Source: Nymphaea colorata (lineage: Eukaryota > Streptophyta > Magnoliopsida > Nymphaeales > Nymphaeaceae). From it: a DNA stretch of 64,000 bases. Shown one piece after another: positions 22,872 to 59,515 of the stretch. The DNA lies in the NCBI RefSeq assembly GCF_008831285.2, contig NC_045147.1, positions 22,592,981 to 22,656,980 of the forward strand, written 5' to 3'. The first letter of the stretch is position 1; every line of letters begins with the position of its first letter. Position numbers and translations under genes: made by a program. The notes under the pieces are model-generated. The model saw only the letters and a list, made by a program, of their open reading frames with translations. It made no database searches and was not told where the DNA came from.

Positions 22872-24818
22872 CTATACAAGTTCGATGTAAGCCATGGGAG
22901 CATTATCACCACGCCTTGGTAAGGTCCTGATTATTCGCGTGTACCCTCCATTTCGCTCACCATATCTATCCTGAACCTCTGCAAAAAGGGCGTGAACGAT
23001 CTGCTTTTCGTATATAAAGCCCAAGGCTTGTCTTCTTTTATGCAGAGAGCCATCCTTAGCCAACGTGATCATTTTCTCGACGTACTTCCTCATGGCTTTT
23101 GCCCTAGCTTGAGTTGTTTTAATCCTACCATGCTTTAGAAGCTGCGTGGTGAGACCCCGTAACAGTGCCTTTCGTTGATCAGGAGGCCTGTTGAGTTTGG
23201 GCACCCGTCTGCCATGGCGCATTGCAAAGAATCTACTGCCATTGTTGACAACACCAAGAACCAGATCAAACCCATCGACGTCTGTACAAAAAAAGGCGCC
23301 CGGGGCACGTAAGCATATATCAATATTTGTGATGGCAACAAACTAGAGGAATATTCACTAGAAGCAATTGCCAATACAGAAGATGAAGCCTCATAAAAAA
23401 TGCAACGGTCTCCTGAATTAACACAGGCAGACTTCACAGAAGATGGTGGCATTAGGAATAGGTATCTATATAAGCAGAATAAAAGGGCAGATTTACAATA
23501 CAAATCAATGATCTTTTCAATAGCAATACACAATAAATTATTATAAAGACTAAAAGTCCCCACAGAGAGAAAACAATTGGAGTGCCTTGGATTACTTATA
23601 CACGACTTCAAACCCCGCCTATGTCCATCTCTTAATCCAAAAGAAAGAGCAAGAGGGAAGGGCTCCAGGATTCGACCTATTGGCAAATATGAGGCCAATA
23701 ATGGTAAGGATGTCCCGTTGGCTTAGCCAAATGGAGAAGGAAAGGACATAGGTCAAAAAACATCCTTTTAAGTCAAATCCTAGTGGTTGTTATACTACAC
23801 AAGGATCACCTCTTCAGAAAGAAAACGCAGGCTTACGAAGTGAAAGGGCTCTCAGCTGCACAATTTCAAGGAGATAAGCCAAGGCGGCGAAAATTAACTG
23901 TTCAAGATAAACAGTGTTGCTGGGACACTGACAGAGTGATAATGCTTGCAAGGCAACGGTTCTTGCTACTATACCATAAAGCTAAATGTAACCCACATTT
24001 CATGTTTGCGAAGAAATCACCTTTTAAAAGAAATCAGACATTACTATATCCATAACCCATTGGCTTCCCTGTTTCGTTATTTAACTAGTGAACAAGGACA
24101 CCTTGGGTCACTTAAACAGCCGAGTTAACTCAAGTACCGATCCAAATGCTATGTGGACACTTTGAAAAATACCAAATTAACCCAAGAAAATAGCGCAGGG
24201 TTCCCAATTTCCAATCCGATGCACATGAAAATAGAGTAACATGGAACCATCTCGGCGTTCCAAAATATCGTGGAGTTCCACATTAAGGAGAAACGATGAG
24301 ATGTATGGATGGAGGCAAGATCCAATTAAGAGAAAGAAAAATGAAAAAGGACACATTTGTTGAAATCATTGCAGGGTTTGTTTTGGAACAAATTTGGTCA
24401 TGGGAGAGGGGAAATCCTCCGGGCATTTGGGACGAGATGCTGCAATTCATACTACAAAAATGGGACGGCATCCACTGTCAAATTTGTCCCACAATCTCTC
24501 TCTCTCTCATCCACTCACACATCCACGCCCGCTCGCTCGCTCAGATACCAAACCAAGAACGAATGGAGTAGAGAAACGTTGCAAAAGCAAGAACGACAGG
24601 CCATTACCTTGCTTAATGCGCAACGGGTTTGCGACCGCCAAGCCGGAAAAGGACCGCGAGAGGGTCAGCCCCCGGCGGACCGAAACCTCAGAGCACATCG
24701 TAGGGAATGGCGACGGAGCCGCCGGGGATTTCCCGCAAGAAACCTTCGCCGTCGAGATCTGCGGGAGCGCAGAATGAAGGGACGCCATGCTCCAGACAGA
24801 GCAAGAGGCGGACGCCAT
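22872..24818 (-). CDS. RPL17: Chloroplast 50S ribosomal protein L17 (bL17c), nuclear-encoded
   Basis: Two exons on the minus strand: 24608-24818 (start ATG at 24818) and 22872-23281 (stop TAG at 22872-22874). They join in phase 1 to give 206 aa, close to the length I recall for Arabidopsis plastid L17. Residues 1 to about 85 are Ser/Ala-rich with few acidic residues and fit a plastid transit peptide. From Met91 the bacterial-type L17 domain runs to the C-terminus: [45 protein letters not shown] and the end PMAYIELV. L17 sits at the peptide exit-tunnel side of the large subunit. The intron is 1326 bases with a GT donor and a TTGTACAG acceptor. The leader just upstream of the ATG has a long CT tract on the coding strand. 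I see no defect. Confidence 0.95.
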
Positions 24819-26401: not shown

Positions 26402-29068
26402 TCAGCATGATGTAACCGGTTCCATCATTTTGTTTACTGCTTTGTAACACTGAAGACTGCAAAGAGGAAGATTTGATTTTGAATCTCTATACTTGTATGC
26501 GTTTGTACATGATGGCCCTGCACATCTTTCCCTTGGTGGAGGATAACTGCACAAATGACGGAACAAAAACAAAAGCTCAGACACTCGAACAATCAAAAGA
26601 ACTAGACAGCATGCATTAGTCAAAACATCAAAATATAGCAGCATGAATGAAAAGCAAAGACAAGAAAGAGCTTGCTCAGGAATTAGCATCTAACAATCCC
26701 AATATGTGCATTTCAAGAGTTAACTTTTACCTGCAGGGTTGAGAGCTAAAAATGCTGGGGAGTCCAGCATCTTTAGGGAATGAAACAACTGTTCCAGATG
26801 GTCCCATAACCCATCTGACGGTGTTAGCAGCAAGAGATTTGGCACGCTCTGCCTTCTCCTGCAAGAGAGAATTCCATGAGAAAAACCAAGTATCAAATTT
26901 CACTACAGCTCCGAAGCAAATGAACCAGGCACAATTTGTTATTTTACCAGCGCCATCTCCTCTTTCTGCTTTCTCACTTTCTCGTCCCGTTTCTTTCCAT
27001 TTGCATCTTGTCCAAGTATTTTCCTGATTGCCTGTGCCTGCGGTTTGGGAAGCAAAGAGAAAATTAATATTTAGAAGATGTGGTGATGAGCCAAAAATGC
27101 TAAGGATAAAAAAATATATAGAATATAATCTGATACAAACTTCTGATTCCCTGGCGGCTTTTTCTACTTGCATTCGACGCCTCTGAGCTGCCTCAGCCTT
27201 CTTCAATTGCTGCTCCATATCAGTTTTATCCGCTTGCTCTGTTAGTTGAAGAGCGTGTAAATGAAAGCCACATTCACAAAAAAAACGTGAAATTGTTGCA
27301 AAATGAAGCAATAACATCTTACTTCTTGAAGGTGCCGGTGGCAAACCATCTGGAAACTCAACCAAACCAGCTGCAGATGATGGATCTTTCCTGGATTGGA
27401 GGGCCCTCTGACGAGTTGTGAGAGGCACCTCCTTCTTATCATCAATCAAAGTATCAATAAGCCCTCTCTTTTTCTTCTTTCTGAAGCCTGAACTGAAACC
27501 AACTGTTTCATCGTCTTCATCAACTAATCCTTTTTCTTCTTCATCAACAAAATATAGACCATCAATGTCCCTTGATCTTGGTTTCTTCCGGTTTTCCTTG
27601 CGTGAGGAAGCTCCAATATCATAGTCACCATCTTCTTCAAAATCACATGCACCAAACCTTCTGGAAATCCTTGAGGTTCGTTGCTTATGGCTTTTGCCAT
27701 TTTGATCTGCATCATGATCACCACTTGCTTTAGAGGCTTTCAGTCTTTCAAGATACCGAACCTCATTGTCATCTTCATCACCACCATCAAAGTCGCCATC
27801 TAACATACGCCTCTTTGGTACGCGCTTGCTCTTGCGAATTGGCTCCGAAACAGCAGACAATGTTGTTTCAGTTGGTTTTCCAAACACAGATCTCTTAGAG
27901 CCCTTGATCCTAGAGTCCAGCTTCAATTGCAATCTGAAACCCCCATTGTGGAAATCTTTCCATGGAATGCCCTGCAAGCCTTTTCCACTTTCTGGAGGTG
28001 ATTGATCCTCGCCATCAGATTTATCCTACAGGTTTGCAGATACATGACATTCATTTGAGAAATGAGAACTAAAGCATGTTCCTACTCCATAGCTGAGACT
28101 GGGAGAATAAATAAACTACACCAAATTTCTCTCTACATAGACTGCATAGAGACAAAATTGAGGCGATATGATTGCATTCCTAACTGCTCAATTAGCAGAC
28201 AAATTGACAACAAACTAGTGAAATACATTAAGTGCCATAACAAATGTAAATTAAAAAATATATATATATATACCTGCAAAACTAGCTTATGTCGATCTCT
28301 AGATACATCTGAAGAACTTGGGGCCTTTGCAGAAGAATCAACAGGGGACCCATGCTGATCACCACCAGAGTTGGACAAAGGTTTCGTGTGAATTGTGTGG
28401 GTAATTCCTCCAACCTTGAGCTTTACCTTTGTAAGCTTATTCTCCTGAGAAGAGTGGTTGCCACCATTGTCGGCAATAGGACTATCACTCGTGCTATTTG
28501 AAGTGAGAACAAACCGCCCATTGTTTCTGCTGCTTGCATTCCTTGTGATGCTAAGAGTCCTCGATGAGTCTCCAGACCCAACCTTTAGTCGCTTAGGTCT
28601 GGTGTCCGGATGACCTTGTCGGTGACTGTTCAAACTTTTCCAGTTAGCTGGTGCAAGAACTCCCTCGCTGCTTCGTTTAAATTCAGAATAAATTTGTGCA
28701 TCACCATTGCTGCTGTAAGATTTATCTGGAATCGCCATGTGAATGTCATCAAATTCTTCAACTGCATCACCATTTTGTCTGCTTTTCTTTGAATCCTCGG
28801 AACTAGAAACCCATGCTCTATATTCATCTTCGGCACCATTCCTAGATTTCAGTTCTCTTTGTTTATAGCTTTGATCACCCTCCCAATTGTCCTTGTTTGC
28901 ATCTCTAAAAGGTTCTCCTCCATCAGAAGCAAATGCAGATGAAAGTGAAGGAAGTTCACGGCAGTCTATAAACTGTGACTCTGTCCTAGGCCTCCTGGAT
29001 GAGAAGCTGCTACGCTTCTTTCGAACAAAATTCGTACCATCAAATGCCAACCCACCAATTCCCTCCAT
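26402..29068 (-). CDS. INO80B: INO80 chromatin-remodelling complex subunit B (PAPA-1 / HIT zinc finger)
   Basis: Exons on the minus strand: 28274-29068, 27323-28025, 27141-27238, 26948-27037, 26731-26858, 26402-26546. All joins keep phase and sum to 1959 nt (652 aa). The start at 29068 (MEGIGG) is preferred over an in-frame ATG 12 bases upstream because I recall homologues starting MEG. Residues 1 to about 500 are Ser/Lys/Asp-rich and look disordered. From about 500 there is a charged helical segment, then the PAPA-1 region (AQAIRKILGQD, then NTVRWVMGPSGTVVSFP), then a C-terminal HIT-type zinc finger (RCAGPSC ... CSLQC, about 605-652). In yeast and animals this subunit (Ies2/INO80B) binds and stimulates the INO80 ATPase, which slides and edits H2A.Z nucleosomes; the same role is inferred here. 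Confidence 0.88.
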
Positions 29069-29190
29069 CAGGGCCACCAAGGCCTTGAAATGCTAAAATG
29101 CTTGCTCTATGTCCCTTGTGCTAAGACAGCCTGTCAAAATGACATGAGCTCAGCATGCTTGACACTCTAAAACGTCCACTACGTGATACC

Positions 29191-40578: not shown

Positions 40579-43500
40579 TTACACAAACGAAAGATCGTCC
40601 TCCTGTTGCTGAAGAACAACGGTGGCAAGGCCAGGCCTGTACACGGTAGATCTTGGATTCCTGACTAAAACCATGATCTGATTCTTTCCTTTCCCTTTCT
40701 GTGTTGGTTGCTCCTTACTGAGTTGGGCAAGCATTGAAGCCTCACATAGAGCCTCGGCTGCAGGCTTCACACTGTTGAGCAGACCATCAAAATGGATTTT
40801 AAAAAATGAGAAGTTCTGATGTCAAAAAGTACAACGCTTAGCATCAAGCACATCGCAACTTCATGTTTGACTCGCAACAATGAAAAACTTGTCAGATTAA
40901 AAATCTGCATCCAGTCGCTTGAATAATCCAACAACTAGAGATATATTATGGTGGCTTACAAAGTAAAACCTCGGTTCTCTTAGTGCATCTGGTGAATAAG
41001 GAGATGGAATCAAGAAGACAGAAGTCACTTGTTAAAAAGAGAGAGAGAGAGAGAGAGGTACCTGCCACGGACAAAATCAGTCGTAACAAACCCAATCAGC
41101 TGCCTGTGAAATTGCCTGGTGCCTGGACTTTCAGGGACCTGCATCTGCCACATGTGGAAAGATTGCTGGGTAAAATATGATCTCAATAGGATTAAGGGAA
41201 TCTGTAGTTGTTCTTGTTCATTGGGTCTGCAATTGAATTAAACATGAAAGATAAAAAATCAAAGTCCAGAAAAACTACAAATGAGAAAGAACACAAGAAG
41301 CATAACCCCAGAACTTGAATGATACTTCCACGAGGAACTAATACGGTAATACCTCAATAGGACAAGGGGACAAGGTCAAATTTTCTTCCCCGAACCAGAA
41401 TAATTAACTACGTTCAATCTTTCAGTTCAAACAACTCATCAGTCTCCACCATAAACAACATAAATTTTGCAATTGAATTAAATATGAAAAATGATATCAA
41501 GAAAATGAGAAGCATAATTGTAATTGAATTAAACATGAAAACAAAATAAAAGTTGAGAAGAACTACAAATGAGAAGAAAGAACAAGAGAAGCATGAGGCT
41601 AGAACTTGGATGACTCCCACGACAAATTATACAGCAACAGGATAAGAAGGCAGGGTAGATTTCTCTTCCTCGGGCCAGAGTACTTAACCACCCAACAGTG
41701 TTCAGTTGAAACTACTAACAATTCTCCACCATGAACGAGATAGACTTTGTAATTGAAATAAAAATGAAAAATGAAATCAATGTCCAGAACAGACTGAACA
41801 GTACAAATGAGATGAAAGAATACAAGAAGCATAACTGTCACCTTGGGACCCTACCAAGCTTCCAGTTGTCCTCAAAATTTTAAGAATAGTTACATCATAC
41901 GACACCAAGAGCCAAATTAAAATTAGGATTACAAAGAAAATGAACAATGGAATAAGTAAAGGAGAAGATCCACAAATCCATGAACCACCAACCTGGACCA
42001 TAAGGAGTAGTCATCAGAAGTAGGCACACATACACTGGCACCTTCTTCAAAAACTCCTCTTTTGTTGGCATAAAGAACAGTTCTCACAAAACAGCCTTTC
42101 TGAATAACTGGAGAAGTGCTGGCCCCACTAGTGGTCCAATTAGGACTCGTTCCATTGGCTATCTCAGCACATGAGCCCTTCGTTGCAGTGTCTGGGTACA
42201 GAATCATGTCGTCAACATGAATGTCATTCACATACCCGAGCAAAGAAGCAGAAGTCCTCGCCACGAACCCCTGAAAGGCTCGGTCATCATGCAACCCAAC
42301 ATTCACACCTGTCAGCAAACAAGGAGACACTTCATTGCTCTGAGTTAGTAATCGGCCCTCTCTCGGCAATTTTATGCAATTCCATGGAGGTGGGATCGGT
42401 ATCCTCATAAGTCTCCTTGAAGGAGGCAAAGCTTCAACTTTTTTATCAAATGCTACAGCTTCACAAGCCATGTGGTCTGCATACGCCTTGCAATCAGGAA
42501 AATCATAAGGAAAGGACGGCAGTTTTGCCTGCAGGTGAAATTTAAGGTGTCAGATTCAAACAACTAGTTATAATTGCCTTATGAAAAAATCAGCCACTTC
42601 TTTTTATCGGTTCTGTTTATTGTATGCAATTTTGTTAAATAACCACAGAATCTATCAACTAAGATAACATAATGCCACCAATTTAGTGGAATCAGCGATC
42701 TTACTTTCAAATTCCAATATTAAACTCTAGAAGAACCACTTCTGATGAATACTAGCACTGTTATGTCCAAAAGGAACAAAACAATAAACTTACAAACGCA
42801 GCTATTGTCTAAAACATACCTCACAAGCAATCCACCTTCTCTCCCGCAAACCAATTGCATGCGCCCCATGAGAGACCATAGAAATCCAGAAGGCCTTGAT
42901 CCAATTTATAGGGAGAATTATGGACCACCTGCTGAGAGGAAAGAGCACAACATAATTATACACGCCTTTAAATAAGTTACAAATATAACAACAGGATACA
43001 TCCATATCTGCTTGTGTGAGAACACTACATGTAGGACAGAATTTGAAATACAGACATTTAAAGCAAGTCCATACAAGTACACCAAGTCAGTGCATTATGA
43101 GAAACCCAACGCCTCCAGCAACAGAGACCAGTAACCCAATAAATTTATGTGCACACATCATATATTATGAAAATTATTGTTTGAACATATGAAATAACAA
43201 AAACGATGGAGAAAGAACACAAACAAACAAATTACCACAAAAAGGAGACGTCCTTCTGGCTGTTTCTCAAAAGTAAAATAGGACAGAACCTGGAGAAATT
43301 GTTAGTACTCTTGGAAGTACATATTTCTTGATTTTTCTTATCCATGAAAAAGGAGGACAAACGTCTCTGGTGCTTTTCAGCACAAAGAAGAGATTCTTCC
43401 ATTGGAGAGCTCAAATTTTTGGCACTCGATTCCCACAACTCTTTAGAATCAGGGACAAGACAATTCCATTCATGTTCAAACCAGGTACCCATAAAAGCTT

Positions 43501-46500
43501 CTATCTTATTCCCCGTTGCTTCCCAGCATGATCCATTGTTTTCTTCTAAACTACCATTTTGTGCAATGGGTTCAACCTTGGGTCCCATCCAAGGGCATGT
43601 AGTTTCTTTTACAGGTACTACACGGGGGTCTACAACACTTAAAGAGAGAATAGCATGAGAAGCAAGGTCCTCCGCATGTTCCAGATTGAAAGACTCTGAG
43701 AAAGTTGAGTTTGTGCCCTCTTCCCCAACATCTGGACTTACTAACTTAGAACATCCAGCATTGTTACGTGCCCTGTCAAAAGAGAAAATCATCATAAGAA
43801 GTGTCACACATGCATGAACATGAAATGGCAACTCCATTTCCAACTGAAAGATAGAAATGGCATCTTACTCTCTCATTGGTTTCAGCAACTTCTGACAAAT
43901 TTTTAAGGCAGTAGAGCCAAATAGTTCCAATCTGCCAAGCTCCCCTTCACGTGAAACACAGTTTACACCTACACCGTCGGCATGCATCTGAACAAGAATT
44001 AATCGGCCAAAAAATAATAATATAAGCAATAAATCACGCCCAGCATTCCACAAACACAGCAACAGCTCTGTAATGATAAGAAATCAAACCGCCTGTGAAA
44101 ATATCATCTGCTAAACTACAACTTGACAGGAAGCATGATAAATCACATTCCCCTAATCCATCCAAAGTATTCCATTTAATGCATTCATAATTCAAGCAAA
44201 CAATAATATATAGTGAAATTCCCTTGGCCTTAAACAAGAAATAGGACTGCTCCAAAGTCCAAAGCTAAAAAAAAATTGAATATGAGAGCGTGATAAGGTC
44301 ATCATCAAATCTAGATGATATACAAAAAATGAAGGACCATATGTAGTCAACCAGGTTGTACACCAGATTTTGAAATGAATTATACAAAACTACATGTCCC
44401 AGATATAGGCGTGTTACATAAAAACACAATAGACAATTATTGTATACTTGTTATAAAACTATTGAAAGGAGTTCGACATGGAAGTAACTGGAGTGACATG
44501 GTCAAATAAGCCTACAACTACATTTATGGAACCAGGTGGATATAAACGATGTTTTCTTATTTATGTAATCGATTTGATTTTTTTCAACATTGATGTTTTA
44601 TTGGAGATGGGAAACCTTATTAATGAACGATTTATTACATAAAATCAAATTAAGGTTAAATACATACATATTCAAGTTGGAAGCATCACCTCCCATCACC
44701 CACCATCTGCAACATGAATTTTCATATTACAAATCTCTTATTTGCACTGTTCCATTAATACTTTAAGGTGCATTTTGTTTCTTCAGTTATTATCACGCTA
44801 TGCCACTCTTTTTGCTTAATCATGGTTATTCAATCTGGACATGTTTATCTAGGAAATGCTCCCCTGACTATAAACTTTTTTGCACACATTTCTGTAACAA
44901 AAAAAAAGAGAAATAATGTTAATTCTGTCTAAAGGCAAAATTTTGGAATATAAGTACTTACACCAACTTGCAAACTAGAAAAGTTAGATGAGATGTTATC
45001 CCAGAAGAAGGGAACATAGACAGATCAATGATTTACATACAACAAAGTGAAACAAACACTTAAATGTAAGACTATCGTGTGTTCGAACAGAACCACATTC
45101 CCCCCTAAATTGCAAACTTTGGAGATGCATCATAAGTCATAACAGAGATATAGCACTCTCCACTTCACAGTAGTACAATAAGAAGACTAAGCAAGCAGTC
45201 TAGTTAAAGAGATTATGAACACTGAAACTGATGCACTGAAGTGTAAAAGAAGAAAACATGGTTCTAATATAGACCTGCCTTCCACAAGCAGCTCCTAACG
45301 CATCAAATCCTTCCTTGAATGATGCTGCATGTAACCAGATCCACAACTGACGCTTCTTTTTCTCATACAGAAAGTCATGCACATCAGTTGCACCATTCTC
45401 CGTGCCAGGGTGAGTAGAGGTCTGAACTAAAGGTCGCCACATATATGTCACAGGTGAAATCGCCTGAGAATCAGCTCCAGCATGATAAAGCTGTCAAAAA
45501 TGAATACATTATAAGTAGTAGATACATTGAAAAACAATTAACATCCCTCAGACGTTCAAGAGGATTAATGTCAGAATTGTACCATAGACTGGCCATAACT
45601 AGCTCCATTCAAAATAGGCTTAGAATATTCCTCAGGTATACTTGAAGGTGGTGGCACTAAAACCTCATCCAAGATCGTCAAAATGGATTTCTACGAGCAC
45701 GTGAAACAGGAAGAATTAAGATTGCAGCAATTGAGTACACATACAAGCCACTCGCCAAAGGTCCACCTAGGGAGAAAAAGGAAATGCTTCATTTGAAAAG
45801 TCGTTCCCTCCTAAACAAAGAGGAGAAACGTACCTCAGCACCCTCCAATTGCACAGTGCTAAAGTAACTTGCGTCATGTATAAAGCATTCACTTCTAAGC
45901 TGCTTCAAAATCGATCTCGATCCCCTCCCTCTGCGACACAAAATGGACCCAATAGAGTTTATAGTTTCAAGAAAGAAAAAAAGAAAAGGAAAACAACTGA
46001 ATCCAACATAGTTCGACAAATCATAGACGAAGAAACAAGCATGTTTAACCACCATAGCAAAAACAATATAGAACTAAACACTCGAGCTTGCTCATGGACA
46101 AACCGATCGCAGTCTGTCATTGTCTTAGAAAAACCAAGAAATTTAAAACCAATAAGAAGAGTTATTAACAGCGGACATATGCAGAAGCACCCTGTAAGAC
46201 CAATAAAAGTTTCCAAAAGAACAGTCAGATCAGAGAAGCTAAATCTAACGCTCAATTCTAGGAACTGAAAGGCCCCTGCATGGACAAAGCATATTGACTC
46301 GCAAGTCCATAAACTACGAAATCCATACCTCCTTCTCACATAGACACAGAATCCGAGCTCCTCAGAACAACAGCTAGAGGGGCCCGCTTTACCTGTAACC
46401 AACAACCTCACGTCTTCAGCACCACCACGTCCATTTTCAAATAGATTTCGCTCGCGGAAAACATTAATAAAACTATGAAACCAGGGTTGAGAACCAAAGT

Positions 46501-47051
46501 TTGCAATAAGAAACACCAGTAGAAATAATACGCAGCGCCCAAAAGATCACAAAAAATAACGAATCCACTTCCACAGGAAAAGGACGACCTCAAAAATCGG
46601 ATTACCTGCCCGATAAACCCAGAGGAAGATAAAACCCCCATCTCTTCACCATCTCGAACCGTTTCGCGTGCCAAACATGCGTTCTCAGCCTTTTCGTTCC
46701 ATCACCGGAAAGGCTAAACCCCGAAATAGGGTTTCCCTTGAACTCCATTCTCCTCCTAACCCTCCTGTTCTGACATTTCTTCTCTTTCGCCACTTCAGGG
46801 TCCGTTGTGCTCCCATCTTCGCCGGAGACTTGCCCTACTTGACGCTTTCTCTTCTTGCTCTTTGTACGGCAGTTGGGATTCCGGCGATTCAGGAAACTGG
46901 AAGTCCTCCTCCGCGTGCGGCGGGGAACCCTGAAGTCGGAGCCCACACGCTCGGCGACGATGGCGTGGAGGGACTGAAGCTCCGCAGATCGGGCGTCGGC
47001 GAAGCGTTGGACGTTTAAAACCCGCGGTGGAGGCCGCTGTTCTCCCGCCAT
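40579..47051 (-). CDS. POP1: POP1, large protein subunit of ribonucleases P and MRP
   Basis: Ten exons on the minus strand: 46606-47051, 45834-45930, 45583-45690, 45275-45490, 43869-43987, 43236-43772, 42820-42928, 41993-42528, 41062-41226, 40579-40771. They total 2526 nt (841 aa), close to plant POP1 length. POP1 scaffolds the RNA of RNase P/MRP, which trims tRNA 5' ends and cleaves pre-rRNA in nucleus and nucleolus. The N-terminal POP1 domain shows RRTRRRTSSFLNRR, a KSKKRKR basic run, THVWHAKRFEMVKRWG and, in exon 2, CFIHDASY. The POPLD region lies in exons 6-7 (WSIILPINWIKAFW, SHGAHAIGLRERRW). The C-terminus has LRSYF, IGFVTTDFVRGS, KPAAEALCEA and VLVRNPRSTVYRPGLATVVL. Exon 9 includes LQIPLILLRSYF, whose phase fixes its acceptor at 41226/41227. 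The exon 7 acceptor is a NAGNAG site. The start is the first ATG of the long exon 1. Confidence 0.92.
41227..41992 (-). repeat. Tandem imperfect repeats in POP1 intron 8, including acceptor-like copies
   Basis: The intron is largely made of two to three diverged units of about 230-290 bases. A core around AATTGAATTAAACATGAAA occurs at 41231, 41471, 41521 and (as AATTGAAATAAAAATGAAA) at 41751. A second block, ACAAATGAGA(A)AGAA...AAGAAGCATA, occurs at 41277, 41564 and 41803. On the transcribed strand the core at 41231 is the working 3' splice site, TTCAATTGCAG. The other copies read TTCAATTGCAA, TTCAATTACAA and TTCAATTACAA, so each has lost the AG. Confidence 0.6.
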
Positions 47052-49498
47052 GTTGCCCAAACGCAATACGAGCAATGAAGTGGACAGTCCTCCAAAACCT
47101 CCGACATTTTATGGGGTCGTGTTAATGGGTCGGATTTATCCGGATTATTTGAAATCGAACCCGCTTAATTAGACCTGGTAAGTGGTAAAGTAAATCGGCC
47201 CGAAATGAATGTCGATCCGGTGCGCCGTTTCTTACCTTTACAAAGGGGAGTTGAATCCCCCCTCTGACCATCTGTCACGCGTGTGTGAAACATCCGGACG
47301 GATAGAGATCTACCCCAATAAAATCGGCACCTTTTCTAATAATTTTACAAGGCTGAAGAACAACATGTTCTTCAAACACATGTTTATAAAACACACATCT
47401 CAAAACTAGTATGTTTTTGTTCTAAAAAAGCATGGTGCAATTATATTTCCAATGCAACCCTGCTGGGGGAGGCCCCCGACCATTAAAGAACTATGAACAA
47501 AAGATACAAAAGAGTGGAAAGAATTTACACAAAAGATCCAAAAGCGTCACTTATAGAATAGCATTTGGCATTCACAATCACACTAAAAAAGCTTTTGAAG
47601 TTTAATCAACTAAATGTTAGCCGATAACATACTTGGTGAATCTTGTTCATCAGTTAATTCTTGTAAGTGCTATTCTCCCAAAGCCCATAACAATTTAATT
47701 CTTGTAGGTGCTGTTCTCCTAAACCTTATGGGCTGAAACGTGACAATAAATTGAAGGTATATTTTCCTTACACCCAAGTAAACCTCAAACCATGGAAGTG
47801 AGGAAAAAAGAGAGGCTTCCGCTTCTCATGCCAAATTGGCACTAACATTTAAAATATCTTTCAAGCTATCAACCCCACCCTTCCCCCAACTAAGATCTCA
47901 CGTCAGAGTCCTTTTATTGGACGTGCCGAACCTCGCCGTGCATCCTGAAAGGTGTAGCATCCGTGCCACTGTTAATACAAACACGGCGACAAAATTTGTT
48001 CTTTTTCATTACTGGCGTGCGAGGGATAGGACGAGCAAACAAAATTGGTTATAATGAAACCAAGTTTTACTCCTAAAACCAAGTCTTCGGCATGTCTAGA
48101 TGCAAAATGAGATCTGGCAAAAAAAATTGAAAGAGGAACAATGGCAACCGTTTTTCAGACTACCTGTCGGTTGGAACATATTTTGAGATTGCCCACCTTA
48201 AGCAAATTCAGGGAAGCTATTTCTGTGCCGATATACGGCTAAGAAATGAGAAAGCAGAAGAAAAAAAGGTTGGTCTGTTGGCACAATTTTCAGTCATTTG
48301 CCGGTGATATCGTCCGACCTGGTCAGCTTTTGGCCGAATGGCGGCCGGAGTCGATGTCCGTCCCTCCAGCGATAGCGGCGGTAGGAAAATGGCAGAGGGG
48401 GAAGGAAGCTGCAAACCTCTCCCGAGTCCCATTCCCTTCCATGAGATTGGGTCGGGAGAAAGTCAAATGGTTGCTAACTGCAACAGGTTTTACGTTCACA
48501 AAACATGAAACGACCTTAAACTAAGTCTGGAAAGAAAAAGAGATAATTCTCAACAGTCTTACTTAATAAAAATATGATGAACAAATTACAAAATCAAACA
48601 CTAAAAACTGGAAAAAGAGTATTAGATTACCTTCGTTTTATTGAATTAGATGGGTGAGGTGTGTGTGTGTGTGAGAGAGAGAGGGAGAGAGATTTTACTT
48701 TTGAGATACTTGAAATAGAATTTGGAGAAGGAAACACTTCCATTCAGCACGAAGACAGGAGAGAGTTGAAGAGAAAAAGGCAAATTTGAGGAAACGATTA
48801 GTGAAAAAGTAAGAATTACTGCTGTTTTATTTTGAAAAACTGCAAAAAAAAAGCCAAAATTACTCATTCGGCCCATGAAGTAGGGCCATGTGTAAATCAG
48901 AGTGCCACTGCCATCCGGCTTTCTTATATAGACCTTTTACAAAAACATACGATTCTTGATATAAGGTTTATTAATTTTGTTAATGAATCAACAGAAAAAT
49001 ATCCAATCTTGGACTCTCAAAAGAAAAGAAATAAAATACTATATGTCGTGAGGCAAGACGGACTTTAGCATGTACAATGTAATTCAGCAACTGAAGTACT
49101 CATTCTTACAGACGCACGTAGGAGCACGGAACATTTGCCGTAGGAGCTGCATGTCGAGATGGGTCGCTACTAGAAGGTCCTCACCGCAGATTGTTGGCTT
49201 CAAAGTGAGTTTCATATGAGAAATGATCCTAAGTAAGGTTTAATCAACTTTCAGTAAAAATGACAAATTAAAAAACTGTAATTTTCCCTCAAAAATTATG
49301 TAGAATTCTAATACGTTACAGATAAATGGCGACGCCCAGACAGGATAGTTCAATGTTAAAGAAATCAATAAAGGCTGGTATTCACCTTCTTTCTGCAAAC
49401 GCAGACTTCATGGTAGATCGCAATAAAAGCTCGTGGCTGGAGACGCCAGGACTTTATTTCGCTCTTTAAGGCCTTATATAACATGAAAATAAAATGAA
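47052..49498. other. Intergenic region between FIPS5 (3' end) and POP1 (5' end)
   Basis: Both flanking genes are on the minus strand, so this 2.4-kb stretch holds the POP1 promoter (just above 47051) and the FIPS5 3' UTR (just below 49499). It contains a GT/GA microsatellite at about 48658-48690. Short frames on both strands match nothing I recognise. No gene is called. Confidence 0.6.
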
Positions 49499-52400
49499 CT
49501 AACTGCCACACCACCTTCGTTTCCGCATTGGTCTTTGCTTCGCTTCTCTAGTTTCAGATTCCTGGTTTTCAGTGACGACATCGAGCACATGATGCAGGTT
49601 CCCGTTAGACTCTTTTTTAAGAGAAACTGATTCCTTAAATCGCTCTCTGCGCTTCTCCATCTTGGCCAGCATCTCAAGGATCCTTTTGTTGTCCTCTTCG
49701 GGAGCCGATTGATTATCATCTGTCAGTTTACTGAGGACTTTGTCTCCAGAATTATTTTGATCAACATGTGCAGATGCATCCACTTTCCTTACCTCTTGAA
49801 TCTTCTCCACTGCCTTCGCTTCTTTCTTGCTGTACTCCTCTACTGCTGGATCCTCTTTTGGCATAGAAACTTCAGCTCCACGGTGATGCTTGACTAGATG
49901 CTTGTCCAGACACATGCTCTTACGACGGCAATAAGAATTATTTGTATTGTGCAATGGCCTTTTTCCAATTTCCGAATTGTCACTGCAAAATCCCTTGACT
50001 TCTGCTCTAGAATTCGAAAAAGAAACCTCATTGTCCGCATAAAGTTCATCAAATTTCCTGAAAGCCCTTTGCTTATCAGTTGAATCTTGCCTCAGACTTC
50101 CCATTCTAGAATACCTTCTGGAAAACTGCAACATAAGGTGAACTAATTTAGCAAACCGTTAGAACAAACACAAACGGCCCAAGTAGCATCTTGTCACAGA
50201 GGAAGAAGAAGCTCACTCCACGTGCCCCACAGGCAAAAATACCTGAGAGCTGATATGAGTGGCAACCAGTTTCAAACTGCATATATAACTCCCAAAAGAA
50301 ACCATCCAGCTGTAAGGGATGACGTAGCTATCGAGTTGTGTGGCTGCCAGCCACTCAGGGCATCCCACACAAAGAAAACATGACTAGTTTGTCCAAGACC
50401 ACAGGACTAGAGGGGTAAAAGGCAGGTTCCTACAACATTCAACAATAGGGAGAGACCACAATATGTCATCCAGATTGCAAGTTGATGCCAGGAAAACAGG
50501 CACACACCCCACCGGTAAAACCAAAAGCAGACAGTCCCTTTGTTCTTCAAAAACTACGGAGTTGACATGCCATATGTTATCAATACAGCAGGAATACATA
50601 GTATTTAAACAATGGAAATAGACATAAGATGGATTTGTAAATGAGAGATAAATAAGTTTCATCGTCCTTGCAAGTTGATTGTAAAGTGATGGGTGAAATA
50701 TCTCCTGCAAGGTCTTCAAGTTAGCACTACAAAAAAGCATCTATCATGTACAAACATGCATTAAGATCACCTTGTCAGCTTCATGACTTCCCACTTGTTT
50801 CATTTTGATTTTGCTAAACTTTTTACAATTAATATTTCAAAATGTACCACCAGTGTTGCTAAAGTAGGCTTCACATCATCCTAACTAGATGATAAAGGAA
50901 ACTGAGTCTAGCAATAAGACTGCTTCATGACCAAGGCGGCAAAAGGAGTGCAAGGTAAACTTTTTATTCCAACTAAAAAGAGTTGCATGAAAGTTGAAAA
51001 ATAAAGCATTTGTTTTATTGGAAAGAAATACCGTGTCCGTGAAACATATGGAAGCATCAACGACAGAAACACATATTTTCAGATACTCGTAATCTATTTA
51101 GTGCAAAAAAAACCTGCAATAACATCACTAGTAAATATCAACTATATTCCGTACCATTTAAACTCACACAATTTTCATTTCACACCCAAGTCACACAGAC
51201 ACTTGTAAAAGGCAAAGTACCCTTGTTGAGAAGACCTGATATGGGTGCAGGTACAGGACACGGCTTGGGCACAGCAGTTTTAATTTTTTTTTTTTGGGTA
51301 TATTTTAGTATCTTTTTGTATTTGGTATATTTTAGTTTTTTTTGTTCAGTAATATATATTTTTATGAATGCAAACAATCAATTTATGGGAATATTGCTGC
51401 AGAACCCAGAATTTGGCAACATAAGAACCAATTAATGCACACATATAGATACACACGTCTAAGTTAATTGGACTTTTTATGCACTCATTTCTCGTAACTG
51501 TAGTAACTCTGAAGCCCCTGAAGTATGCTGCCATTCTTTCACTTGCATTTGTGGTTGGTAAATCCCTTGAAGCCAATTTATTCCATTTTTTCTTTCTAAG
51601 CTAAAGAAGGTACATGATCTGTAGAGCTTATTCGTAGTCAACTTGGCATGATATAGTCCACATAATCTTCATAATTACCCGTCCAAGAACCAGAACAATA
51701 ACCAACTGTTGGAAGTAACAACATACTGCCACCGGCGAGTGAATTTTCAGTTGATGGACCAAATTTTCAGATCAATGCGTCAAAGCATTAACTCCCCTTA
51801 TCCTCCACCAACCATAGAACCCATATTTAGAAGTGTTCTTGTACTTAAACACAAGGTAAAGTGGCAGAGCAAGAATCATGACAAGTAACAGCTATCTACA
51901 TAAAAATAACAAAATAACAGTAATAGCAACAACAGTTATAATAAAAAAAATAAAACTAAAAGCAGCATACAAAACAAGAATGATGTAGACATGATGACTT
52001 TTAACAGAACTGTGACAAGGTCACCAATAGAAGAAACTCCCATAGCATCAAGAATGAGCCTATTTCATACAATGGGCGACTTACAAAGTCCAAACACTCA
52101 ATTAAGCTTCTCTAAGGTAATTCTTGAGAGTGTATTGTGTGCAAGCGTAACAATAAATCAATCAAGATAGAGGGAAATAATCAAAGGACAGGACATAGAA
52201 TCTGAAGGACTTGACAATGACATGAGTATTCAGTATTAAGTATTAACCAATATCCAAAGATTCCAAACACAGATAATACTGGTAACACAGTCCACCAAAA
52301 GAATAACAAACTTTTTGAAGGACATAGCAGGCATTTTATGGAGCAACAAGCATGGGGAAAAGAGAGAATAAATTCATAAACAACTTTTTTCCTTGTAAAA

Positions 52401-55400
52401 GCATTTAAAAATGGACAAAGGGTAAGAAGAATAAATTATCTTTTTCCTTGTAAAATCATTTAAAAATGAACCAAGGGTAACATTGCCAGAATTACAACAA
52501 AAATTAACAACATGGGCCTGTCACTTATTATGGAACTATCAGCGGTCTTGCCTATTTTCCATTTTGTAGGCCATTCTTCAGGAAAAGTGGACATCCATCA
52601 CTCCAATTTGATTACCAATTAAAGGAAGGGCATTACATTTCCTTAAAATGCATTTTGCAATTTTTCACTTTTCCAATGCAAAGTTTCCGTTGAGTTACAT
52701 TTGTCTCAACAGTATGTAAGACCAAAGATATTCCTAATTTGATCGTGGAAGCCTATTACCCTAGGTTGTGTTTGAGAAAACTTCTCTTCAAGTGCATCCT
52801 ACTACCTTATTTAACAATTATGGTTGCCACTTGTGTAGTTTACTACAAGAGTTCTTGCTAACAATCCAATTAGTGTATCATGGCCAACTAGTGACTTGCT
52901 TAATTCTAGTTTCTAGAGGATACCGCACAGCCTACATTGAGCAGACAAAGCAAGTTAAACCATGCACTTTTCCAGATAGTCCTCAGACATTCTCCAGATG
53001 GATTGTCTATAAAACACATCTAAATGTGAACATTTTTTTCAAAACCACCAATCCGGAATTTACTTTTGCATTTGTGAAGACTGTGTCCTGTTTTATTAAC
53101 CAGCAAAGCTCAATGGCCAGTTGATTCTACTTTCTCAAGAATACATACTGTTAGCTAAACCCCACCCACAAACTTTAGCTTTATAACAGCAGTTGGCGGA
53201 GATCTAGCATTTACTGCTCACGACATTTTGATGTATAACATCCTCAACTAATCAGTAATCAGTGGTTCACAAGTCCGCAACTCGCCCCAGTACAGTGTTT
53301 ATCATGCAATTACACACAACTAACTCTAAGTTAAATATTTTCCAGTTTCTCATGAGGCACAAATCATCTTAATAGTTCCAAATGTTCTCTAGCTTAATCC
53401 CAGCTTGATAAATTTTGTCAGACTAAAAGTCTCATAGTAACAAAAATGTGATTTCCATTCAATCCCCTCCCCAAAAAGCACTAACTAGCAGATCAGTGAA
53501 CCAAAGTTTTATGTGGCTCATCAGTTTAGCACTATGAACTGTGAAACTAACAATCCAACAAAGAGGAATAGCATCTCTGTTTCTTAACATTCTTGCTCTA
53601 GAATATGTGATTACCATGAAAAATTTAAGAGCGTTGCTCACTAAAAATGTTACAGGAATACTTATCTGGATAGTCCCCAGTTAGAAGTAGACATGATTGT
53701 CAACATAGATAACCAGTAAATAACTAATGCATTGGGATGGCATTACAGTGATGAATAACTTCACAAATTTATTAGCAAATGAAATTGGACTTGTAAAACA
53801 TAGAGAAACAGCCATGTTTTTCTCAATAGAAACAGCAGTATTTGCCACTTACAACAGCCAGAGCATGCAAGCAAAATAAATGATACACCATAACACCAAG
53901 CACCCTTTTATACAGTAAGAAACATGCACAAAGTTCCATATTCAAGTACCTATAGACTATAACATCATACAAGGTCTAGGAAGATCAGGCAATTGCAAGA
54001 ACTCAGTAAGCAACACAAGAAGAATGTTTCATTAATATCAGACCATATCATTTTTTACATTTATACTCTCATAGCAAACCTGAACAGCTGGTAGGTCAAC
54101 CAGCAAAGGCACTTAATTCCTGCACACACCCCCACCAAATAAAGAACCCTCTTTTGTGCATGGTACATATGGATAAGACATATTCTCAGCACTAAAACAA
54201 AGAATCAAAATGGAAAAAATTTCTAAACTAAGTACACATCTTGGAAATGCTCCAAGAAAGCTAAAAGGACAAAAGTTCACTTTTGGTATGCCATTTTTCT
54301 CATACAATTGTTTGTTTTCTAGCTATAATACACAAATACCCCAATTTTTTACCTTTTCTTCCCAAACATTCCTCTGAGATTTCACTGATTCTCTGCAACT
54401 TAACGGAGTGGTACCATAATTCTTACCCTCACCACCCACATCAGAAAATGAATGAATTTGTAGATCGACATCAGATTCCCACAACCTGCCTTTATCACTC
54501 AGCAGCGGTCCGCCAAATCCCAATACATTTCCCCTGTCCAAGCCATGTCGTTTCACATCCTTATGCTCAAATGTAGCATCTTCATGGGAATAATACGAGC
54601 ATAGATCACGTCCATTATCTTGATGCCAATATCCAGACGATGCCTCATCATTGGTGTTATATATGTCTTCTGATAACCAACCCTTCCTTCCATTCTCACT
54701 AAAAAATGAACCACAGGAAAATCCAGAATCTTCTCTATTGTCATCCCAATCATTAGCAGCAGCAAGGTTGTCCAGCTTAGATGAATGATAATGTTCTTTC
54801 ATTCTATGAATAAACAAACCCTCATATTGGTGTTTCTTGTAGCGCAAATCTCTAGAATCAGCTTGCAAATAACAATCTCTAATCCTTTCTTTTTGCTCAC
54901 GAACATGCTGTGTATCCTCAGCACTTGGATGTTCACTAATTATCTTGCTTCTAACTGTATTATATTGTTTTGGATCAGATAAGTATAAATCCCTCTTACA
55001 AGGATGCATCCAAGTTACTTCATCTAGTTCCCAGTCCCTCAGCAATTTGTGCATGTCAGATCTCATATCATGCCCATATCTCTCTTTTACACCTTTAATT
55101 TCTATTCCTCGATCAGAGTAAGGCATACAACCTTTGGACATTTCTCTCATCACTTCCTGATTATGACTCTTCCTTGAGATCATATTATGGAGGTCTGTAC
55201 TTGTTCTAATCTCACTTTCATATTTCAGATATTTATATCTTTGCTTTTTATTGTCACGGGATAAATGTTCCAAATCAGATCTATCACATTCCTCATCAGG
55301 AAAGAGACCCCTTCCATGAGAAATTTGAGTTCCTCTTTCCACCAACCAAGCCTCTTGATGCTTTTTTTTATTCCCCCCATAACATTTTCTCCAGACATGT

Positions 55401-58400
55401 AGCCTTTGATGGCAACATTGCTTTCTGCGCCTACATCCAGACTCCTTCTCAGATCATTTTTGTTATAAATGTCTTCTGAATAAGCATTACCTCTCCTACG
55501 TCTTTCTAAAAGTTTTCTTCTGTGCTTAATATATTCTTCTGTTTCTTCATAATAAACCAAGCTTCTCTGCTCAGGGGGATATGAAGGTCAACTTTTCCTT
55601 CCATGATTTCAGAATGAATTGCCATGTCATGCTTAGACTTACCATGGCTAAAAGAAACTCCATCTCCCATAGGCAACTTTGACCTTGCCATGCTCCGACG
55701 CATTGATCTGCCATCACATTTCATTTTATCTTCCTGATGAAATTTCAAACGTCCTCTGCTTCTGACTGATTCTACCTTAGACCTTCTATTTTTGAACTCA
55801 ATGCAATGGCGATCTTGAGAAGAGTTTGGCCTTCCATCCAGCTGATCAGGAGGGCTTATATAATGTTGTTCCCCTGAACTACTTATTTTTTCTGCATCAA
55901 TGAAAGAACCATTTTCAGATCTAGAATGCCCTTCAACATGGCCATGTCTAGAACCATCACTTGTCTGATCCGAGAATGCTGATTCATTTTGTGATGGACT
56001 ATGCTCTGATTTGGATGATATATCACCTTTTCTTTCATCATTTCCCATAGTACCTTTTGGTGCATCCCTTTTTCTATTGTTGCCAGATGGGTGACACTTG
56101 CTTTGCTCATCCGAATGGTCATCACTGTGTGCAGAATCATCCCCAGAGTACCTAAAAGAGATGACAGAGAAAAAGTGTCAGGCATAAGAACTCATGACAG
56201 AACGAGGATCAACTAATTCAAAATTACAAAGAGAACATAGAATGAAAATTTAATCTGTGTTATCAGATTAGGTTGACGTTTGTACTTTGTAAGCAGGCTA
56301 CGATGACAAGTGGATTCCTTTGAGGAGAATTTTTCTAAATGATCACACCCAGATCATGTAATGTGTGAATAGCCTTTGCAAGTCAATTGCCAAGAGAAAA
56401 TAACAAATGGATTCATCAATTCGTTTATATATTCTACTATAAAGAAAAAGTTAAAGGACCTCGCCAAGAAGTGCTGGATGCCATAATCTGTGCGACATAG
56501 CAGTTGGACAGATGCCATTGCAAAATATGTACTCTAGAGTCTAGACTCCAACAAGATCAATAAAAAATGATACTTGCATGTGATATGGCCAATAGACAGC
56601 TGTAATGTACTATGTCTATTACCTCAACAGGCCAGTGCACAAGAAGAAATTGTGAGATGGGCCAATCATTCTCCACTGGCTTATGCTTCTCACAAGTTAA
56701 GATATCAAGAGGGCAATTATAGAGGCTATCTTCCAAAACGATAGCAGAAAATTAGCATTTTGAAATGGTTCATGGGCCAACTGAGGCCCCACTTGCAGCA
56801 GAGACACAAAACTATCACGAAAGATATTCACCAACCTAACAGCTTCTTGGTTCAGCAGGCAAGAGAGAAAATGATCCACATCAAGATTGTAGTTGCCAAG
56901 AAAGAAAAAATCAACAAATTTGTACCGCAATGGTGTTGAGTGACAAGAAAATTGTGAAATTTGAACGATTTAGCACAAACCTTTCTAGAAGGGATATCCC
57001 ACTCCTTTTGCTAGAAAAAGTGCTGGATCTCCCACAAGCTGGGACTGAAGGCATAGAGCGGGGCCTAGTATCCTTGTGACACTCAGGAATAGAGCTTGCA
57101 GGATTCAAGTCACCATCGTTATGGCTGTCAAGTAGCTCGCTTTCCATTACATGGGCCTCCTTTCCAGGATTTTTGTTCTGGACAGAGCCATCACTATATC
57201 TAACATTTTCTTTGTGTGTATCTTCAGAAGCTTTTACTTCTTCCTGCAACATAACCTGACACAAACATCTAACAAGAAATAAGTGGAGGGTTCTCAGATA
57301 ATGCATTAACAGTTAACTGCCACTCTGTACCTGTATGACAACATCTGAATCCCGAACACGTGGCCGTCTCACATCGACAGAAGGGAGTCGTTCACCAGCA
57401 CCATCCTCAACTTGAATAGCTCGGCCTTTTCGCTGAATTATAAAGGCAAGTATTTATGACAAATCATTGTCTGCTATTAAAGGGAAAAAAGGAAAAACTA
57501 AATGTGATTCACTAAGCTAAAGATTACAATTTCAGTCCATCTTGCATTTCTCTGTGTAGCAACCATGACTGAACAGATCCTTTCTTCTTTATTAAGTGTG
57601 TTAAATTCACCTCGGAAAGCTTCAGAGCCGCCTGATCCAGGGACCTGCTTAAACACTAGCGTTTTTACATGAGCGCCTTTAAAATTTCATGATGTGATGA
57701 AAGAGAAAAAAAAATTGAAATATAATACGTTGGCATCAAGCAAATCATTTCAGCAGGCCTTACGGATTCATAGACAGGAATTCTCATTCTCATGGTTGCC
57801 TGCTCTCGATATTGTGCCTGTAAGATTGGAGACCAAACACTAATACATGTAAAGATTTTGAAATACAATTATGAAAACCAACTTCACCATAACAACTGCA
57901 ATTACCAGTGACATGCAATAATTTTTCCAACTTTCCTCATCCATGCCAAAGTTGAAGAAATCAGTTATATCCACTCCTGGACACCTCCAAGGCTTCTTGT
58001 CTAACAAATCAATGCCAACATCAAAAATAGTCCTGGAAGAAAAATCAGCCACACTATTCAATGACTCATAATAACGAACCAGAGAAACCTTCTGCTGTTG
58101 AGCAAGTCGTAAACACAAGAACTACTAATAAGAGACGTCCAGAACGGGGGTAAGTTATGGAGCTTAATTTTATGGACCAACAATAAATAACAAAGATTTT
58201 TTGGGGATGCCATTTGAAAAAACGACAGAAAGGCAACAAACAAAAAGTAAAAGAACAAGGAAAAAAGACTAGCATAAACGCCGCCTAAGATGTAAACAGC
58301 TCATTGCAAGTACAAAGTAGATAGCTTACTTATTCCTAGGAAGGAAAAACTCGCGTCCACTTGGATCAAACGACAAGGTGCCTGCATTTTCTAATGACCA

Positions 58401-59515
58401 TTGAATCATGTGAGCAATGTAGTCTGCTAAGTGCTAATTGCTAACTCATCTATAACAAAAATGCCCACCAGAAACCGAAGGCACCACGCTCCCACTCTTA
58501 CAGGACGCTATTTTCGTATCTCCGTGCCGAACTTGAACCTGTGGTGCTCTATGCCTGTTGACGATTCCAGTAGCGCGTTGCCTAACATACTGCCCAATGC
58601 AAATACAAACAGAAAATCACTAACAAATGACAATAAAAGGAAAAAAATTAAAGAAAAAGATAAAGGACCTGTTACGGGGAAGCTCATCAAAAAGCTACCG
58701 CAAGCAACTGCTTATTTCCTTTTTAGTTCACTTATAAAGCTATGTAACGGGCGTTCTCAGAATTGAAACGATACCTTGTATTGCGAATACTGTGAATTCT
58801 GATACTGCCTTGAGCTCCCGCAGCTTCCTCCATTCTTAGTCGATCTATGTCTTTCGGTTCCACCGTCATTGACTCCCGGTGGCGATGGAGCCTCATCAGC
58901 CCACTTCTGATCTTTATCTGGCGTTTCCTCGCCCATAACAATAACCAAATCGTCATCCTCATCATCATCATCGCTCGCCACGCCACTTGGACGACTCGAC
59001 CTAAACATCGACGTTGGTTGCGAGAAACATCCATCATCCTCATTCAACACAATGTGCAAGTCATCCTCACTATCACTATACTGACTCAAGCTCGAAGCCT
59101 CCGCCTTCTCACTCTTCCAATTAAGCGCATTGCCCACATCACAATCGGTAAGTCCGCCAACTTCACGCTCCGCAGCTGCGGTTTGCTCAGCTGCGATATT
59201 ACCGTCATAGCGTGCTTTCTTTTCCTCACTTTCCCCACTTCGGTTCCGATCGCCTTCAGCATACAAAGGTTTCGTCACTTCCTCAACTGTCCTGGAGCCA
59301 CCAAAGCCATCAACTCCTCGGATTCTACCATACAAAATGGACTCCTCGTTGAGCTCTGTCTCATCTCCGTTACAGTGAGAAGAAACACCGGGGACGAAAT
59401 CGTCCTCGACGGCCTTCTTTCTATAAGAACGGCAGTAATTCGACACCGTACTGGCCGGTTTCACCTCGATTCCAACATCAGCATACAGGTCCCCGAAATC
59501 ATCCATCTCCTCCAT
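49499..59515 (-). CDS. FIPS5: FIPS5-type FIP1, pre-mRNA cleavage and polyadenylation factor subunit
   Basis: Exons on the minus strand: 58775-59515, 58502-58589, 58330-58381, 57906-58032, 57764-57817, 57331-57432, 56981-57255, 54353-56151, 49499-50125. FIP1 links poly(A) polymerase to the CPSF complex in 3'-end formation. The N-terminus is acidic (MDDFGDLYADVG; SDSEDDLHIVLNEDD; DDDDEDDDLVIVMGEE). The FIP1 motif is at about 294-336: SFDPSGREFFLP, KKPWRCPGVDITDFFNFG, ESWKNYC. Next come RIPVYES and GERLPSVDVRRPRVRDSD. The long C-terminal part is Arg/Asp/Ser/Lys-rich and ends KRRWCGS, like Arabidopsis FIPS5 (KRRWTSS). Exon 8 runs through three frames: one base seems missing in the run at 55574-55578 and another at 55373-55378. 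With both allowed for, the exon ends in phase and the protein is about 1288 aa; as given, it stops at 55506. The last intron spans 4.2 kb; extra small exons there cannot be excluded. Confidence 0.85.
50126..54352 (-). other. Very large intron 8 of FIPS5
   Basis: The 4.2-kb gap between the exon ending NVWEEK and the exon starting FSRRYS joins in phase 0. It is AT-rich and contains a short tandem duplication (52384-52480) and a GC-richer repeat-like patch at 51238-51280 with words such as GGGTGCAGG and GGACACGG. A plus-strand open frame at 52768-53124 has no recognisable motifs. No transposase, RNA gene or further FIPS5 exon was recognised. Confidence 0.65.
52384..52480. repeat. Tandem duplication in FIPS5 intron 8
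   Basis: CTTTTTTCCTTGTAAAAGCA followed by TTTAAAAATGGACAAAGGGTAA recurs 56 bases later as CTTTTTCCTTGTAAAATCA followed by TTTAAAAATGAACCAAGGGTAA. The two copies differ by a few substitutions and one indel. Confidence 0.7.

Follow-up and report, generated by a model that had tools for sequence, protein, structure and literature searches.

The window analyzed here, a 64,000-nucleotide stretch of Nymphaea colorata DNA, carries on its minus strand a Fip1-type gene that begins with an ATG at 59515 and ends with a stop codon at 49499 (Table 1). We assigned its 10 exons manually at GT/AG borders and verified them with a script; together they give a coding sequence (CDS) of 4015 nt. Membership in the Fip1 family is clear: the match to PF05182 scores 73.5 bits against a curated cut-off of 22.7 (E 9.5e-21). 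The predicted product would be a Fip1-type subunit of the plant mRNA cleavage and polyadenylation complex. Exons 1 to 8 sum to 1589 nt and join exon 9 in phase 2, in keeping with the G|TAC at the start of that exon. Exon 9 itself is 1799 nt long, opening directly after TTTTAG and closing directly before GTAAAA, and its third reading frame exits in phase 0 into the last exon. The phase argument of the first-pass annotation, that one added base per run brings the exon to the phase its donor needs, was right. Scoring with splice-site weights gave plausible borders at all nine of the nine introns; these weights, which served for both the whole-gene border scoring and the GRAS control exons, are approximate Arabidopsis frequencies. 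The intron that separates exon 9 from the last exon (54352-50126) is 4.2 kb long, and the other introns of the gene measure 75 to 829 nt. Read-through from exon 9 into this 4.2-kb intron would add a short tail that stops at 54323, resembling a product of intronic polyadenylation.

Table 1. Features of the Fip1-type gene, with positions given in window coordinates.
Feature	Position	Strand	Basis or remark
Exon 1	58775..59515	-	Start codon at 59515, MEEMDDFGDLYADV...; donor checked
Exon 2	58469..58589	-	GT/AG borders
Exon 3	58330..58381	-	GT/AG borders
Exon 4, Fip1 motif PF05182	57906..58032	-	Pfam E 9.5e-21 and whole-genome match
Exon 5	57764..57817	-	GT/AG borders
Exon 6	57528..57644	-	GT/AG borders
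Exon 7	57331..57432	-	62% over 39 aa to the FIPS5-like gene on C3
Exon 8	56981..57255	-	GT/AG borders
Exon 9, long exon through three frames	54353..56151	-	ORFs and codon model
C5 run (coding strand), probable first one-base loss	55574..55578	-	Within 95% set 55590-55558
TAG stop, end of frame 1 after 744 aa	55506..55508	-	ORF reading
G6 run (coding strand), probable second one-base loss	55373..55378	-	Within 95% set 55456-55343
A8 run (coding strand), alternative second-loss site, adjoins G6	55362..55369	-	Within 95% set 55456-55343
Last exon	49499..50125	-	C terminus RKRRWCGS; 41% over 58 aa, E 8e-5, to the C3 gene

Other genes lie on the same strand. Pieces of a gene for POP1, a subunit of RNase P/MRP, adjoin the Fip1-type gene (41929-47108, minus; PF06978 and a weak PF08170 match). 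A ribosomal protein L17 domain is complete in one open frame (22872-23342, minus), and open reading frames at 26727-29092 (minus) are, by eye, like a plant INO80-complex subunit B (PAPA-1-like) protein.

Which Fip1 gene is this? A whole-genome search revealed two loci with a Fip1 motif, the gene in the window and a second one on contig C3 (24.42-24.44 Mb). The C3 locus contains the stretches GRGRGDWRP and YDPDLPPELAAAAG and an open reading frame of 653 codons. These two stretches are features of Arabidopsis FIPS5 and serve here as a lead rather than a test. With Arabidopsis FIPS5 as the reference, the FIPS5-type stretches that flank the Fip1 motif are present in the C3 gene and absent from the window gene. 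The window gene shares with FIPS5 the Fip1 motif and the C terminus; relative to the C3 gene, it is similar at the Fip1 motif (61% over 44 aa), in exon 7, and at the C terminus (Table 1). No Pfam family matched the frame 1, frame 2, or frame 3 part of exon 9, and no PDB chain matched its frame 3 part, so that homology can be used only at these three places.

Two Fip1 families are present in flowering plants, with At5g58040 (FIPS5) and At3g66652 (FIPS3) as their type members (PMC3538716). Since a FIPS5-type gene is found on C3, the window gene is most likely FIPS3, the second angiosperm type, an assignment made by exclusion from the two-family pattern rather than from a tree. With the At3g66652 type it has in common the Fip1 motif, an acidic N terminus, a long charged C-terminal region, and the RKRRW end, and its genome likewise contains a FIPS5-type gene. 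It differs from that type in having, as written, a frame that is broken twice in the long exon. The name FIPS5, given to the window gene in the first-pass annotation, is therefore probably wrong, because FIPS5-type sequence belongs to the C3 gene. The same annotation had proposed looking for an intact FIPS5 elsewhere in the genome. That question is largely answered by the FIPS5-type gene on C3, in which the long and last exons are open.

Within exon 9, three minus-strand frames are open in succession: frame 1 (56177-55506), frame 2 (55587-55225), and frame 3 (55453-54323). Codon log-odds, trained on the window gene itself, preferred the frames in the same order along the exon; the frame preferred in each block has no stops, and the other frames have 3 to 29. 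The order of frames did not change when each block was left out of its own training set, and the codon signal past both shifts was as strong as that before them. A change-point model that used codon usage alone, and was therefore blind to run length, confined the two switches to 95% sets of 55590-55558 and 55456-55343. The whole CDS contains exactly two G/C runs of at least five bases, CCCCC and GGGGGG on the coding strand (GGGGG and CCCCCC in plus-strand letters), and each 95% set holds one of them (Table 1). Random intervals of the same sizes both touched a G/C run of at least five bases in 0.12% of trials. Each switch amounts to one base too few, with the same sign at both, and the distance between them is ∼200 nt, a proximity that two random events would show in 10% of cases. 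These data bear out the earlier observations that the exon passes through all three frames, that the C5 and G6 runs lie at the switches, and that both changes are losses in the same direction. The A8 run, like the G6 run, could be the site of the second slip.

A near-repeat within the exon agrees with this picture. Two copies of a 27-nt sequence (89% identical; 54647-54673 and 55453-55479) encode SEDIYN-ND, one of them in frame 2 and the other in frame 3. Their spacing of 806 nt is one short of a multiple of three, in agreement with the loss of a base between the copies.

As written, the protein ends after 744 of ∼1,338 aa at the TAG occupying 55508-55506, the stop that had been reported before. 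The 594 aa lost amount to 44% of the protein and not to more than half of it, as had been claimed. The truncated product retains the Fip1 motif and loses the C terminus. More than 1 kb separates the frame 1 stop from the last exon junction downstream. A stop so placed is expected to trigger nonsense-mediated decay, and the mRNA of the gene as written would be expected to share this fate.

Do the two breaks belong to the assembly or to the plant? Beyond the two switches, the 4015-nt CDS has no additional stop or frameshift, and none of its splice sites is broken. A decayed pseudogene was considered and rejected on these grounds, as there are no more stops, all borders are intact, and the coding signal is undiminished. 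The frame has been maintained up to the very recent past, or is still maintained, as evidenced by the undiminished codon signal downstream, the fitting splice sites and phases, and the conserved RKRRW end.

We consider it probable that a single patch of ∼200 bases was poorly corrected in the assembly and carries two consensus errors, within an otherwise intact FIPS3-like gene. In that case, a single base would be missing from the consensus at each G/C run or, for the second loss, possibly in the A8 run next to it, and the true chromosome would encode one frame of ∼1,338 aa. Several lines of evidence lead us to infer that the assembly, rather than the plant, has lost the bases. The switches coincide with the sole pair of G/C runs of five or more bases in the CDS, have the same sign, and are ∼200 nt apart. 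The rest of the CDS is free of defects, with full codon signal after the shifts, and the C terminus, which the given sequence places out of frame, retains similarity to its counterpart in the C3 Fip1 gene. Long-read plant assemblies are known to suffer from homopolymer indels that survive polishing and create spurious frameshifts (PMC10584963). The window gene resembles such consensus errors in its clustered, same-sign, single-base changes in runs within an otherwise intact conserved gene.

The wider assembly fits this explanation less well. All 29 full-length GRAS genes were unbroken (53.6 kb of open frame with 72 G/C runs of at least five bases), as were all 11 full-length Exo70 genes, the latter judged from the search table only. 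Thus, a general proneness to homopolymer frameshifts was not found in these 40 full-length genes, and run-length spectra revealed no truncation of run lengths in the window. An assembly fault would have to be local, which counts against the error; a local fault does not, for its part, depend on such general proneness. The suspicion of sequencing or assembly error raised in the first-pass annotation holds as the best single explanation, but the assembly is not generally frameshift-prone at G/C runs in the sampled genes. DNA, frame 1 protein, and frame 3 protein searches of the genome for a second copy or haplotig of exon 9 returned the window locus only. If the fault is one of the assembly, automatic annotation will truncate or split a polyadenylation-factor gene, which would mislead comparisons of FIPS3 between plants.

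Alternatively, both losses may be real and recent slippage deletions, a possibility to which we give distinctly less weight than to a consensus error; both weightings are judgements, not computations. The allele would then be a null or C-terminally truncated FIPS3-like allele, with the FIPS5-like gene on C3 covering the essential Fip1 function. The presence of that gene in the same genome favors this reading, as do the clean state of the assembly elsewhere (the 29 GRAS and 11 Exo70 genes) and the fact that real slippage also favors homopolymers. In Arabidopsis, piN/piS exceeds 1.5 for FIPS3, in which 807 accessions are listed with a frameshift variant, whereas FIPS5 is nearly invariant (PMC10839035), a difference that fits a real loss. 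However, two independent deletions of the same sign would be needed, close together and in the only two G/C runs, and 4 kb of coding sequence with full coding signal downstream has no other sign of decay. It is possible, though improbable, that the C-terminal 44% of FIPS3 disappeared recently from the lineage or the individual, so that only the Fip1-motif half or a null allele is left, and that FIPS5 alone serves polyadenylation. Were this so, the plant would be a natural FIPS3 null or knock-out that could help to reveal the role of the second plant Fip1, which has been little studied.

Can splicing join the frames instead? Part of exon 9 could be an intron (exitron) that begins at a donor, ATG|GTAAGT at 55642 on the minus strand, which outscores every other donor in the gene. 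Several donor-acceptor pairs would mend the frame; splicing between 55642 and 55195 (448 nt), for example, would leave a single frame open through to the last exon. We regard this as quite unlikely, because donor-acceptor pairs as good or better occur in the intact intronless GRAS exons and in the FIPS5 long exon, because the stretch to be removed has coding codon usage in frames 2 and 3, and because the shortest single-intron solution has a weak acceptor (3.2 bits). The enumerated splice rescues of exon 9 were discounted as not supported, the control exons holding equal or better pairs. A donor as strong as that at 55642 was seen in only ∼3% of intact GRAS exons, and it may be an exitron donor. 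Slippage of RNA polymerase or the ribosome at both runs, which would restore the frame in some molecules and with which the location of both switches at homopolymers agrees, is very improbable, as it requires two same-direction events in one message, for which we know of no precedent in plant nuclear genes, and a run of five C's is short for productive slippage.

Two possibly damaged copies of other gene families were seen elsewhere in the genome. A BAHD transferase copy at C3:8061033-8062095 appears as two overlapping matches, the second with stops, and looks like a pseudogene of a tandem family. A partial Exo70 match at C10:20342316-20342744 (model positions 199 to 342) lies 43 kb from a full-length copy and is perhaps a broken tandem copy.
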